Below, one piece after another: positions 5,622 to 46,554 of a stretch of 64,000 bases of DNA. Positions within the stretch are counted from its first letter, which is position 1, and each line of letters begins with the position of its first letter. A model generated the notes under the pieces. That model was not told the DNA's origin. It saw only the letters and a program-made list of their open reading frames with translations, and did no database searches. The translations under genes were made by a program, and so were the position numbers. This DNA comes from Methyloligella sp. GL2 (GTDB lineage: Bacteria > Pseudomonadota > Alphaproteobacteria > Rhizobiales > Methyloligellaceae), in contig NZ_CP054476.1 of assembly GCF_013341275.1 (NCBI RefSeq), forward strand, positions 1,563,501 through 1,627,500. Direction: 5' to 3'.

Positions 5622-6848
5622 TTATGCCGCCGCTTGCGCGCCTTCCGGATCGAAGCGGATCGGCAGAGAGATCGGCCCGGTATTGCCGCTATCGGGCAGC
5701 CAGGTGCCTTGGCCGTTGGCGCGGATATTGCGCATGCGGCGGGGCAGGATCCTCAGCGCCACGGCCATGTCGCTCTTGGCGATGGCGTGGCCGAGACAGT
5801 GATGGATACCGCCGCCGAAGCCGAAGGAGCGGGCGCGGCCTTCCACGGTGATATCGAAATCGATCGGATCGAAGATCGTCGGATCGGTGCCGGCGGCTTC
5901 GGAGATCAGATGGATGGTGGTGCCCTTGGGGATCACCACGCCCTCATACTCGATATCCTCGCAAGCCTCGCGGGTGACCCAGGTGATGGTCGGGCGCACC
6001 CGCATCACCTCGTCCACGGCGCGCGGGGCGAGATCGGGATTGTCGGCGAGCAGCTCCCATTGCTCCGGATTGTCCAGGAACATGGAGATGCCGAGGCCGA
6101 GCTGGTTGCGGGTGGTGTCGATGCCGGCGAAGACCAGCATCAGGACCATGTCGCGCAGCTCCTCGTCGGAGAGGGCGTCATTGTCCTCGCTCGCCGCGAC
6201 CAGGTTCGACATGAAGTCGTCGCCGGTTTGCGGGTTGGCGCGCCGCTCGGCCACGATCTTGTCGGCATATTGGTACATCTCGACCGTGGCTTGGTTGATC
6301 GCGTCCTCGTATTTCTTGAAGTCGACGCCGAGAGCGTGCCCCATGACGGCCGAGAGCTCCAGCACGTGAGCCGCTTCCTCCTGGGGCAGGCCGAGCACGT
6401 AGCAGAGCACGCGGCTTGCGTAAGGATTGGCGAATTCCGCCATGAAGTCGCATTCGCCCTTGGAGGTGAAGCTGTCGGCGAGCTCGGTCGCTATGGCTTC
6501 GAAGTCCGGCTTCATGGCCTCGATCACGCGTGGGGAGAAGGCGGGATTGACCAGCTTGCGCAGGCGCGAGTGATCTTCGCCCTCCTTCACCAGGATGGTG
6601 CGGACCCACCAATCGGCGAAGATGCCTTCGACGTTGTTGTGGCCTGGCCAGGTGTGGCTGCCCTGGCGCAAACCCTTGTGGAGCAAGAGCTTGCGCACTT
6701 CGTTGTAGCGAAGCACGGCGATGCCGTAGGGCGTGCGTGCGAACCAGCTCTCGTCCCGCGCCTGTTTGATGGGCGCGGAACGGATGGAGAGCATCGGGTC
6801 TGCAAGATTGATGAACGGGGCCTCTTCGAGCCTTGCAGCAGGGTCCAT
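5622..6848 (-). CDS. Cytochrome P450, class I bacterial type
   Basis: 408 residues with AGGAG ahead of the ATG. The I-helix oxygen-binding motif is AGIDTT (241-246), the K-helix ExxR lies in DEVMR (279-283), and the haem loop is FGFGGGIHHCLG with Cys351 as thiolate ligand. It is soluble and would need external ferredoxin and reductase, which are not in the window. It lies 25 nt downstream of a glutamine-synthetase-like gene, so it is probably part of the same transcript; this suggests oxidation of a glutamylated or free amine. The substrate is not identifiable. Confidence 0.93.
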   Translation of the reverse strand: MDPAARLEEAPFINLADPMLSIRSAPIKQARDESWFARTPYGIAVLRYNEVRKLLLHKGLRQGSHTWPGHNNVEGIFADWWVRTILVKEGEDHSRLRKLVNPAFSPRVIEAMKPDFEAIATELADSFTSKGECDFMAEFANPYASRVLCYVLGLPQEEAAHVLELSAVMGHALGVDFKKYEDAINQATVEMYQYADKIVAERRANPQTGDDFMSNLVAASEDNDALSDEELRDMVLMLVFAGIDTTRNQLGLGISMFLDNPEQWELLADNPDLAPRAVDEVMRVRPTITWVTREACEDIEYEGVVIPKGTTIHLISEAAGTDPTIFDPIDFDITVEGRARSFGFGGGIHHCLGHAIAKSDMAVALRILPRRMRNIRANGQGTWLPDSGNTGPISLPIRFDPEGAQAAA

Positions 6849-43236: not shown

Positions 43237-43397
43237 GGTCTTTCGCGCTAGGGCGTTTTCAAACGTTGGCGCCGGCGCGTTCGGTCCGGCAGGGAAGCGG
43301 GCACTATAAAGGCTGCGTGCCCACGGAAGGCAAGCCCGTCATCGCGTTTCGATGTTTCAAAGTGTCCTGACACGTATCGGCTGCATTTAATCCAACA

Positions 43398-43516
43398 CGG
43401 CAAGTCTATCTTAAGCTTCGCCCGATACCCGTTAGTGGCGCTGGCCCGGAGGGGTAAGGCGGCCGGTCTCGCTACGCACGGGGGCCTTGGGAAACTCTAA
43501 ATTTCGGAGTGATTTC
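43398..43516 (+). repeat. Leader of the first Aat-like gene, copy 1 of a duplicated leader
   Basis: CGGCAAGTCTATCTTAA and, further on, TACCC and AAGGCGGCCG recur in the same order at 44627-44755. About 26 of the first 37 positions match. The copy directly precedes the GTG start, so the duplication took the promoter or leader with it. The 43237-43397 part shows nothing further. Confidence 0.55.
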
Positions 43517-44545
43517 GTGTCCCTCTCACAGGACGTGTCCGGCGCCCCTCGGGCGGTTGCAGCTTCCTTGAACGAGACCCCGGCCGACCGCCAGCGCCTG
43601 CGTGAGGAGTTGTTTCGCGAGACCCCGCTGGATTGGCTTGAGCGCAACGGTCTCGGAATCGCCTGGTCTTTCGCGCCGGAGCGGGTTGCCAGCATGCCGG
43701 CGCTCACCTGGCTCTGGCTGAAGGACGTGCTGGCCCGCAGCAACGGATTGCCGGACCCGGAATCTTCGTTGAATGCCGGCGGTGTGGTCGGGATTTGCCG
43801 TGATCTTTCGGTGCCCACGTTGATCGAGGCGTCGAAGCGCGGACTGTATCCTCACAGTCATGTCGGACGTCCGAAATGGTGGTCGCCGGAGCAGCGGGCG
43901 ATCCTGGATCTGGAAGAGTTTCATATCGGCAAGCAGGTGCGGCGCACCATGCGCCGCGGCGATTATCGGGTTACCTTCGATCAAGACTTCGAGCGGGTGA
44001 TCACCGCCTGCGCCGGCAAGCGTCCGGGACATTGGCATCTCAACTGGATCACGCCGAAGATCATGTGGAGCTATGCCGATCTGTTCGATGCCGGCATCGC
44101 GCATTCCTTCGAGGTCTGGGACCGCGAGGGCGAGCTGGTCGGAGGCGGTTACGGCATTGCCGTCGGTTCTGTCTATATCGGGGAATCGCTGTTCTCGCTC
44201 CGGCGCGACACCTCTAAGATCGGCGTCGCGATGTTGGTCTGGCATCTGGCCAAGTGGGGCTACTCCTTCATCGACACCAAGCATATGAATCCGTTGATGG
44301 AGAGCTTCGGCTTTCGCGCAGTGCCGCGCGCGGAGTTCCTGGCCTTGAACGAAGAGGCCATGGCGAAGCCCGGCCGTATCGGCCGCTGGCATGCCGAGGC
44401 CGGAACCGAGGTCGTTGCGGATTGGCGTCCGGACCATGCGGTGTCCGCTGCGCCCAAGGCGGAGGCGGATCACGGCGGATGTCAGCACCGCTCGTCCGAG
44501 CCGGCTATCGATACGCAAGTGCAGCGGACCGGAACGGGCGACTAG
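43517..44545 (+). CDS. Aat-family aminoacyl-tRNA-protein transferase paralogue 1
   Basis: 342 residues from GTG 43517 (GGAG 8 nt upstream); the second paralogue starts at the equivalent GTG. Residues 1-85 are an extension absent from E. coli Aat (234 aa). Residues 86-290 match Aat: GLYPHSHVGRPKWWSP (109-124), YRVTFDQDFERVITACAG, WITPKIMWSY, HSFEVWDREGELVGGGYG, GES (222-224, Glu223) and FIDTK (Asp253, Lys255). In E. coli Glu156, Asp186 and Gln188 occupy these places, so Gln is replaced by Lys. Family members transfer Leu/Phe from tRNA to protein N-termini; the substrate here is unknown. Confidence 0.85.
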   Translation: MSLSQDVSGAPRAVAASLNETPADRQRLREELFRETPLDWLERNGLGIAWSFAPERVASMPALTWLWLKDVLARSNGLPDPESSLNAGGVVGICRDLSVPTLIEASKRGLYPHSHVGRPKWWSPEQRAILDLEEFHIGKQVRRTMRRGDYRVTFDQDFERVITACAGKRPGHWHLNWITPKIMWSYADLFDAGIAHSFEVWDREGELVGGGYGIAVGSVYIGESLFSLRRDTSKIGVAMLVWHLAKWGYSFIDTKHMNPLMESFGFRAVPRAEFLALNEEAMAKPGRIGRWHAEAGTEVVADWRPDHAVSAAPKAEADHGGCQHRSSEPAIDTQVQRTGTGD

Positions 44546-44626
44546 CCGCAGCGATACCGATTGCCGGTGTATCGGTGCGAGCCGGCTGCGCAAATCGTGG
44601 TTAGTAATTTCTGTATTTCCGTCCCC

Positions 44627-44755
44627 CGGCAAGCCAATCTTAATTCTTCCCCAGTACCCCTAATGACGATGGGCCGGCGCCCAAGACGCCGGTGTTGCTG
44701 TCGGCGGCGCCCTGCAAGGCGGCCGTTGCGGCAAGAAACGTTCGGGGTATTTCGC
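44627..44755 (+). repeat. Leader of the second Aat-like gene, copy 2 of the duplicated leader
   Basis: CGGCAAGCCAATCTTAA, TACCC and AAGGCGGCCG repeat the pattern of 43398-43516, shifted by about 1230 nt. It lies between paralogue 1 and paralogue 2 and may hold a second promoter. Confidence 0.55.
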
Positions 44756-45781
44756 GTGTCCTCATCGGGCCAATCGTCATGCGACCGCGCCGTAGCGGCC
44801 GGGTCCTCCGAAATGCCGCCGCCATCGGCGGAGCGCCGGAGGCTGCGCGATGCGCTGTTCCGGGAATCGGCGCGCGATTGGCTGGAGCGGAACGTGCTCG
44901 GCACCGCCTGGTCGCTGATGCCTTCGCGGGTTGGCGACGTGCCGGTCATGGCCCGCATCTGGCTCAACGACCTGCTGGGCGGAGGCAAGGACTTGCCGGA
45001 TCCGGAATCGCCGCTGAATGCCGGCGGCGTCGTCGGGGTGGTGCACGATCTTTCGATCCCGACCATCGTCGCGGCGGCTAAGCGCGGGCTGTTTCCGCTG
45101 GGCCATACCGGGGGCCCGAAATGGTGGTCGCCTTCGGTGCGCGGCATCGTCTTCTTGGACGAGTTTCACATGCCGAAGCGCCTGCGCCGGCTGATGCGCC
45201 AGGGGCGCTACACCGTCACCTTCGATCGCGATTACGAGCATGTGGTTTCCCACTGCGCCGGCAAGCGGCCGGGCCGTTGGCATCTCACTTGGGTGACGCC
45301 GGAGATGATGCGCGCCTATGCCGATCTGTTCGACGCCGGGCTGGTGCATTCCTTTGAGGTTTGGAACGAGAAGGGCGAGCTGGTCGGCGGCGGCTACGGG
45401 CTCGCCGTCGGCAGGGTGTTCATCGGGGAGTCGCTTTTCTCGCTCGAGCCCAATGCTTCGAAGGTCGCCCTTTCGGTGCTCGCCTGGCACCTCGCCAAAT
45501 GGGGCTTCTCCTTCATCGACACCAAGATCGTCACCCCGGTGACCAGCAGCCTCGGCTTCCACGAAATTCCGCGCGCCGACTATCTGGCGCTGAACCAGAA
45601 GGCCATGGCCGGGCCGGGCAAGCCCGGCCGCTGGGAGGTCGAAGCGGGGCCTGAGATCGTCGCCGATTGGCGCCCCGAAAAGGCGGTCAAGCCGGGCGGT
45701 ACGGGAGGAGCGGGGCCGGCCGGCGCGGAAGACGGGGCGGCCAAATTCAGTGAAACAGATATGACTTCGGTAGGTGCGTAA
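44756..45781 (+). CDS. Aat-family aminoacyl-tRNA-protein transferase paralogue 2
   Basis: 341 residues from GTG 44756, homologous in position to the start of paralogue 1. It shares the N-terminal extension (LRDALFRESARDWLERNVLG; paralogue 1 has LREELFRETPLDWLERNGLG) and the Aat core: GLFPLGHTGGPKWWSP, WVTPEMMRAY, GES (Glu225) and FIDTK (Asp255, Lys257). The Glu-Asp spacing of 30 equals that of E. coli Aat. The tail is Gly/Ala-rich. Its stop shares one base with the third gene (TAATG), so the two are translationally coupled. Confidence 0.85.
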   Translation: MSSSGQSSCDRAVAAGSSEMPPPSAERRRLRDALFRESARDWLERNVLGTAWSLMPSRVGDVPVMARIWLNDLLGGGKDLPDPESPLNAGGVVGVVHDLSIPTIVAAAKRGLFPLGHTGGPKWWSPSVRGIVFLDEFHMPKRLRRLMRQGRYTVTFDRDYEHVVSHCAGKRPGRWHLTWVTPEMMRAYADLFDAGLVHSFEVWNEKGELVGGGYGLAVGRVFIGESLFSLEPNASKVALSVLAWHLAKWGFSFIDTKIVTPVTSSLGFHEIPRADYLALNQKAMAGPGKPGRWEVEAGPEIVADWRPEKAVKPGGTGGAGPAGAEDGAAKFSETDMTSVGA

Positions 45782-46554
45782 TGAGTTTCAATGTGTTGCC
45801 GGTCCGTGTTGCCGGCTATGGACGAGCGGCGGGTGCTGCGCCCGTGCTTCCCAATCCCGAGATCGCCAGCGCTTCGGACGGACGGGCCGGAACCTGCGGG
45901 GCACTCAGTATCGAGACCCTGCTTGCCGCCTACAGCAAAGGCTTGTTCCCGCGCCGTGTCGCCGGGTGCACCGAGTGGTGCGCGCCGGCCAACCGTATGG
46001 TGCTGTTCATCGAGAATTATCATCTCGGCAGCCGGCTTGCCGCCAAGCTGACCCGGCCCGGCTATCGCGTCACCTTCGACCGGGCTTTCGAGGAGGTGGT
46101 GCAGGCCTGTACCGTCCACCGCCCGCGCCAAGGGCGCCGGGAGTGGCTCGACAATGAGGTGGCGTCGGCGTTCGTTGCCGCGTTCGAGGCCGGGATCGCC
46201 CATTCGGTCGAGGTCTGGGATGCCGACGGAGATCTGGTCGGCGGCGCGTACGGGCTGGCCGCGGGCAAAGTGTTCTTCACCGAGGCGCAATTCTCATCGC
46301 TTCCCGATGCGGGTAAGCTGGCTTTCGCCACGCTGAATTGCCATTTGCAGCGCGCCGGCTATTTCGCCAACGACGCTAAGTACATGACCGGCGCATTGCT
46401 GCGGCAGGGCTTTACCATGGTGCCGCGCGACGCATTCAATCGCTTCATCGAGAAGGCCAGCGCCATTCCGGCCGCGACCGGAAGCTGGGCCGGGGAAGAG
46501 ATTTCGGTTGGCGGCTGGCGGCCGAAAGCGCACTGGCTCGCAGGCGCGGCGTAA
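45781..46554 (+). CDS. Aat-family aminoacyl-tRNA-protein transferase paralogue 3 (divergent, short)
   Basis: 257 residues without the N-terminal extension. Core: ALSIETLLAAYSKGLFPRRV, EWCAPANRMVL in place of WWSP, YRVTFDRAFEEVVQAC, HSVEVWDADGDLVGGAYG, TEA (Glu168) and NDAK (Asp198, Lys200). The 30-residue Glu-Asp spacing and D-x-K are kept even though the surrounding text is different. The loss of WWSP, which lines the aminoacyl pocket in Aat, suggests a different tRNA or acceptor. It is coupled to paralogue 2. Confidence 0.78.
   Translation: MSFNVLPVRVAGYGRAAGAAPVLPNPEIASASDGRAGTCGALSIETLLAAYSKGLFPRRVAGCTEWCAPANRMVLFIENYHLGSRLAAKLTRPGYRVTFDRAFEEVVQACTVHRPRQGRREWLDNEVASAFVAAFEAGIAHSVEVWDADGDLVGGAYGLAAGKVFFTEAQFSSLPDAGKLAFATLNCHLQRAGYFANDAKYMTGALLRQGFTMVPRDAFNRFIEKASAIPAATGSWAGEEISVGGWRPKAHWLAGAA

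Follow-up and report, generated by a model that had tools for sequence, protein, structure and literature searches.

A clade of extra Aat-like proteins in Hyphomicrobiales, including a tandem trio in Methyloligella sp. GL2, carries an altered catalytic and donor-pocket signature

Aat, the L/F-transferase, is treated as a single-copy enzyme of the N-degron pathway. In the E. coli Aat structures (2z3k and 2dps, the numbering of which is used throughout), D186 and Q188 serve in catalysis and acceptor binding, with Q188 at the acceptor amine. The donor pocket is highly hydrophobic, and conserved Trp residues stack on the tRNA 3' adenosine (PMC4052509). Three further groups of enzymes are relevant for comparison. 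ATE1 and Bpt share the aminoacyl-tRNA-protein transferase logic and a distant fold match, but belong to another family (PF04377). In the FemABX type (FemX, DhpH-C, Sbb17/Sba18), a lysine is important for catalysis or substrate contact in FemX and DhpH-C (PMC12945691). MprF and the aminoacyl-phosphatidylglycerol synthases use an aminoacyl-tRNA donor and have a related double-GNAT fold.

The window, that is, the whole stretch of 64,000 nucleotides analyzed from Methyloligella sp. GL2, contains three Aat-family genes (g1-g3) arranged head to tail (Table 1). All three are intact open reading frames that match Pfam Leu_Phe_trans (PF03588) over the whole domain, with E-values of 1.3e-53, 1.4e-55 and 2.2e-44 and profile scores of 181, 188 and 151 bits for g1, g2 and g3, respectively, relative to a curated cut-off of 22.7 bits. 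This places them in the Aat fold family. Against the NCBI aat equivalog model (TIGR00667, cut-off 143.55 bits), g2 alone passes with 155.9 bits, and g1 (141.1 bits) and g3 (112.8 bits) fall below. g1 and g2 are 54.5% identical, and g3 shares about 36-37% identity with either. The starts of g1 and g2 were placed by the homology of their upstream regions, which extends to GTG-TCC in both genes. The array, the TAATG coupling of g2 to g3 (the TAA at 45779-45781 overlaps the ATG of g3) and the absence of clpS and clpA from the vicinity, with clpS about 98 kb away, are as a sequence-only reading of this DNA had described them. That reading also reported an N-terminal extension of 85 residues common to two of the genes and lacking in a short, divergent third; the extension is confirmed in g1 and g2, where it covers about 76-78 residues ahead of the E. 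coli Aat start point, near the length reported.

Table 1 Aat-family genes of Methyloligella sp. GL2 and the upstream regions of g1 and g2. Ranges are window positions; single positions refer to the genome.
Feature	Position	Strand	Description
Upstream region of g1	43381..43522	+	core ATCTTAAGCTTCGCC at 43408-43422
g1, AatX type I	43517..44545	+	342 aa, GTG start, PF03588 match; modelled helical N-terminal extension, then Aat-fold core
Upstream region of g2, duplicated copy	44611..44761	+	core ATCTTAATTCTTCCCC at 44637-44652
g2, AatX type I	44756..45781	+	341 aa, GTG start; tandem paralogue of g1
g3, AatX type III	45781..46554	+	257 aa, ATG start; short form without extension
Canonical aat	2,200,093		235 aa
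Single AatX copy	407,868		
Single AatX copy	1,632,362		about 5 kb beyond the window

The adjacent trio is real, but the family is larger than the three paralogues first noticed: the genome (3.23 Mb, a single contig, 93% complete) holds six PF03588 genes. One of these is a canonical aat. A Bpt/ATE-type gene (Bpt-like, PF04377) is also present once, separate from the trio. Thus, together with clpS, the genome has a full N-degron gene set besides the trio. A phylogenetic tree of 77 sequences splits canonical from extra copies with full support (100/100). We refer to the clade of extra copies as AatX, of which Methyloligella sp. GL2 has five (the trio plus two that stand singly), all with intact open reading frames. 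In a small first sample of the order, genomes outside the window's family had one Aat each (16 of 16), and most sampled genomes of the window's own family, which takes in Methyloceanibacter superfactus and M. methanicus, had two to five. As a group, AatX proteins have about 75 residues ahead of the E. coli Aat start point, and a survey with a profile of this extension detected AatX in 38 of the 347 genomes surveyed from the order Hyphomicrobiales, representing 16 of 134 genera. Among the carriers with a name are Pseudorhodoplanes, Rhodoplanes, Pseudolabrys, Afifella, Methyloceanibacter and Parvibaculum. The class sample yielded one strong case outside the order, with the same protein length and profile score as the Parvibaculaceae locus L110, and matches elsewhere in the phylum were weak, most of them covering just the E. 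coli-like N-terminal part. Our search of the open-access literature turned up no account of such Aat paralogues.

We also considered mobile elements as a source. The best plasmid matches listed are annotated canonical aat genes, and the sole match on a viral contig is canonical as well (motif IDCQ), so that a viral or plasmid origin of AatX was rejected. This last gene (L210:2992-3666) lies on a contig of 497 kb that IMG/VR lists as viral but that may be bacterial, and the adjoining ORF, judged by eye, resembles an FHA-domain protein. A defence system was likewise rejected, as PADLOC gave no match.

Inspection of the catalytic and pocket positions revealed a consistent difference between the two groups. 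Of 88 AatX sequences readable at position 188, 85 have K, two R and one G, versus Q in 86 of 86 canonical sequences; near-duplicates occur among the AatX sequences, which are thus not all independent. No readable AatX sequence has Q188, and the trio lacks the D186-x-Q188 motif, reading FIDTK in g1 and g2 and ANDAK in g3. The three exceptions at 188 (L109, L191 and L194) are extended AatX-like proteins, two of which also have M158 and V185. Among the 85 AatX sequences with K188, E156 is always kept and D186 almost throughout; W111 is kept in 75, and W49 is usually replaced. Positions 76, 80 and 83 are basic (R/K) in 78-87%. In the pocket, M158 is replaced by Q in 64 of 85 and I185 by N in 53 of 85, and an added lysine replaces L57 in 79 of 85. 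The pattern T155-E156-Q158-N185-D186-G187-K188 recurs in deep lineages, including Parvibaculum, and thus is probably the ancestral AatX state. Within Methyloligella sp. GL2, E156, D186 and K188 are invariant across all five AatX proteins. Their pockets vary, compared with M/L144, M158 and I185 in canonical Aat: G144, L158 and I185 in g1 and g2 (hydrophobic at 158 and 185), A144, Q158 and N185 in g3 (polar), Q158/R185 in the copy at 407,868 and Q158/C185 in that at 1,632,362. K57 is present in g1 (PKWW) and g2, and g3 has E57. The presence of at least four different pockets among five copies suggests that their donors have diversified.

These observations bear on what AatX does. Since canonical aat, clpS and bpt are found elsewhere in the genome, and since AatX forms a separate clade with an altered signature, a role distinct from N-degron tagging is likely. 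The main rival is that AatX proteins are extra N-degron transferases feeding ClpS/ClpAP, with a wider or shifted N-terminal specificity and several paralogues on one proteolytic pathway. The kept Aat fold and E156/D186, the presence of clpS in the genome and the hydrophobic pocket of g1 and g2, which might still take Leu or Phe, are consistent with this, as are donor shifts known in the Aat family, such as that of the arginine-specific Plasmodium enzyme mentioned in PMC6135404. It is nevertheless unlikely: position 188, next to the acceptor amine, has lost its Q throughout AatX, the ancestral AatX pocket is probably polar, and Lys/Arg and Asp/Glu N-termini are already served by canonical aat and bpt. 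We instead favor, at a probability of roughly 0.6, the reading that AatX is a neofunctionalized family of aminoacyl-tRNA transferases with a donor and/or acceptor unlike those of Aat.

The predicted structures point to the aminoacyl-tRNA transferases. The g1 model (pLDDT 88) superimposes on the E. coli L/F-transferase with a Z-score of 28 over 225 residues at 33% identity, and the g3 model is confident as well (pLDDT 87). The next tier for g1 comprises FemX and the streptothricin-type synthases Sbb17/Sba18 at Z 12-13, and the Foldseek list also contains ATE1, MprF and A-PGS; in both structure lists the tier below Aat consists mainly of aminoacyl-tRNA transferases. These matches favor, rather than prove, continued use of aminoacyl-tRNA. 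The likeness to FemABX enzymes is structural only, as no FemABX chain was found in sequence searches of the PDB, and FemX Lys305 would be a candidate counterpart of AatX K188. A different possibility is that AatX has moved off tRNA altogether and acts as a GNAT acyltransferase dependent on acyl-CoA or an acyl carrier. Acyl-CoA GNAT enzymes do match the C-terminal half of the g1 model at Z of about 10, and there are weak, sub-threshold Acetyltransf_6 matches, but the top non-Aat matches are aminoacyl-tRNA transferases and AatX keeps the whole Aat architecture with its basic tRNA helix and W111, which makes such a change of donor class improbable.

The N-terminal extension raises the question of the membrane. 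Residues 15-72 of g1 are modelled as confident helices, and the extension is about 44% hydrophobic across AatX with a median charge of +4. It could thus be imagined that AatX proteins attach amino acids to a membrane lipid or to an amine resembling one and fill the role of MprF, with hydrophobic, basic N-terminal helices directed to the membrane. LPG_synthase_C (PF09924) is not among the Pfam matches of the trio, and the genome has no such MprF-type domain; across the order PF09924 is rarer in AatX genomes (3 of 38 versus 86 of 309 others, Fisher p 0.006, uncorrected for shared descent). When genera are counted, the association disappears (p 0.53), and it is weak and not significant once the window's family is set aside (p 0.15). 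Furthermore, the extension has a confident predicted fold, neither a transmembrane segment nor a flippase was seen, in contrast to the flippase membrane domain of MprF, and g3 dispenses with the extension. Taken as an account of AatX, lipid aminoacylation is very improbable. A hopanoid acceptor (aminobacteriohopanetriol with amino acids) was rejected for Methyloligella sp. GL2, as no squalene-hopene cyclase was found in its genome (G000) or in the congener G001; the hopanoid-AatX association across the order is not significant (Fisher p 0.09). A broader proposal, an undescribed aminoacyl-tRNA-dependent family marked by K188, with paralogues tuned to different donor amino acids, that would in Hyphomicrobiales decorate an acceptor other than protein (a small amine or a lipid of the membrane), is tentative, and we regard it as possible but doubtful.

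The genomic context gives no acceptor, as neither a dedicated partner gene nor a dedicated tRNA accompanies AatX. At the loci compared, no recurrent pathway gene was found and the neighbors are mostly housekeeping genes. A dedicated operon was rejected because the neighbors (NAD kinase, CutA, SulP-STAS-cNMP, GMP synthase, RsmB, LigT and Ppx/GppA) are explained by vertical synteny, and a dedicated tRNA because none lies within the window or in most AatX loci. Four Methyloceanibacter genomes (L043, L046, L048 and L074) do have a tRNA-Gln(CTG) gene about 1-2.5 kb from their AatX gene of type I, probably reflecting common synteny. The sixth Aat copy has as its neighbor a glutaminase fusion protein with STAS and cNMP-binding domains (L037:4196-6109), and the SulP transporter adjoining the trio has the same STAS-cNMP tail. 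As the genome has six STAS domains, finding two of them next to AatX genes could be a coincidence.

The sequence-only reading had proposed a dedicated three-gene system, and this did not hold up when the gene order and co-occurring genes were sought in relatives. Among the genomes compared, the three-gene array is present in Methyloligella sp. GL2 alone; in the congener G001 there are a single g1-like gene and a frameshifted g3. In much of the family, genes of the g3 type hold the slot between the NAD kinase and SulP-STAS-cNMP genes, mostly by themselves. Type I genes (the g1/g2 subfamily) are usually located away from this locus, and their Xanthobacteraceae relatives lie between guaA and rsmB. 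Type I adjoins type III also in M. superfactus (L047) and two other genomes (L039 and L050), while Pseudorhodoplanes and a further Methyloceanibacter have AatX genes as tandem pairs. The regions upstream of g1 and g2 are homologous over about 140 bp (alignment score 63; the highest of 200 shuffles reached 39), and the core ATCTTAA-N-CTTC-N-CC occurs at two sites only in the genome, upstream of g1 and of g2. Thus, g1 and g2 duplicated together with their promoter region, and, together with the locus comparison, this indicates that the trio came together recently and is not a conserved system of three genes. Upstream of the orthologue in the congener (L039, about 6635-6670) lies a sequence resembling this core. 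In the most plausible course of events, type I genes would have arrived next to the type III gene that was ancestral at the NAD kinase-SulP locus and would have been duplicated with their promoter region.

Such a recent array could also consist of decaying or non-enzymatic copies with no selected function. The g3 gene sits on a long branch and has lost K57, and its orthologue in the congener is split by a frameshift (L039:8009-8506), which may be decay or an error of the draft assembly. Substitutions among the genes are, however, mostly at third codon positions, with pairwise dN/dS of about 0.3-0.4, a crude estimate at such divergence. This indicates that the genes have been under constraint and, with five intact reading frames and their invariant E156, D186 and K188, leaves decay with hardly any probability.

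Taken together, a separate role drawing on aminoacyl-tRNA, as proposed from the sequence alone, is upheld insofar as a function distinct from Aat N-degron tagging is likely, but not as a three-gene system. AatX retains the fold of Aat together with its basic helix facing the tRNA, its stacking Trp111 and its catalytic Glu156 and Asp186, and would most likely still draw its aminoacyl group from aminoacyl-tRNA. With Gln188 changed to Lys nearly throughout and a pocket that is usually polar, we infer that AatX would probably pass this group to an acceptor other than that of Aat, and that most members would probably use a different donor amino acid too.

The NCBI model names AatX proteins, g2 at least, as Aat. 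If our reading is true, aat annotations in Hyphomicrobiales are partly wrong, and AatX, with a catalytic residue and the donor pocket changed clade-wide and as many as five copies in one genome, would put aminoacyl-tRNA to a new use beyond translation. The variation in the pockets and the K/Q switch would then offer a direct, testable handle on how the Aat fold chooses its donor and acceptor.
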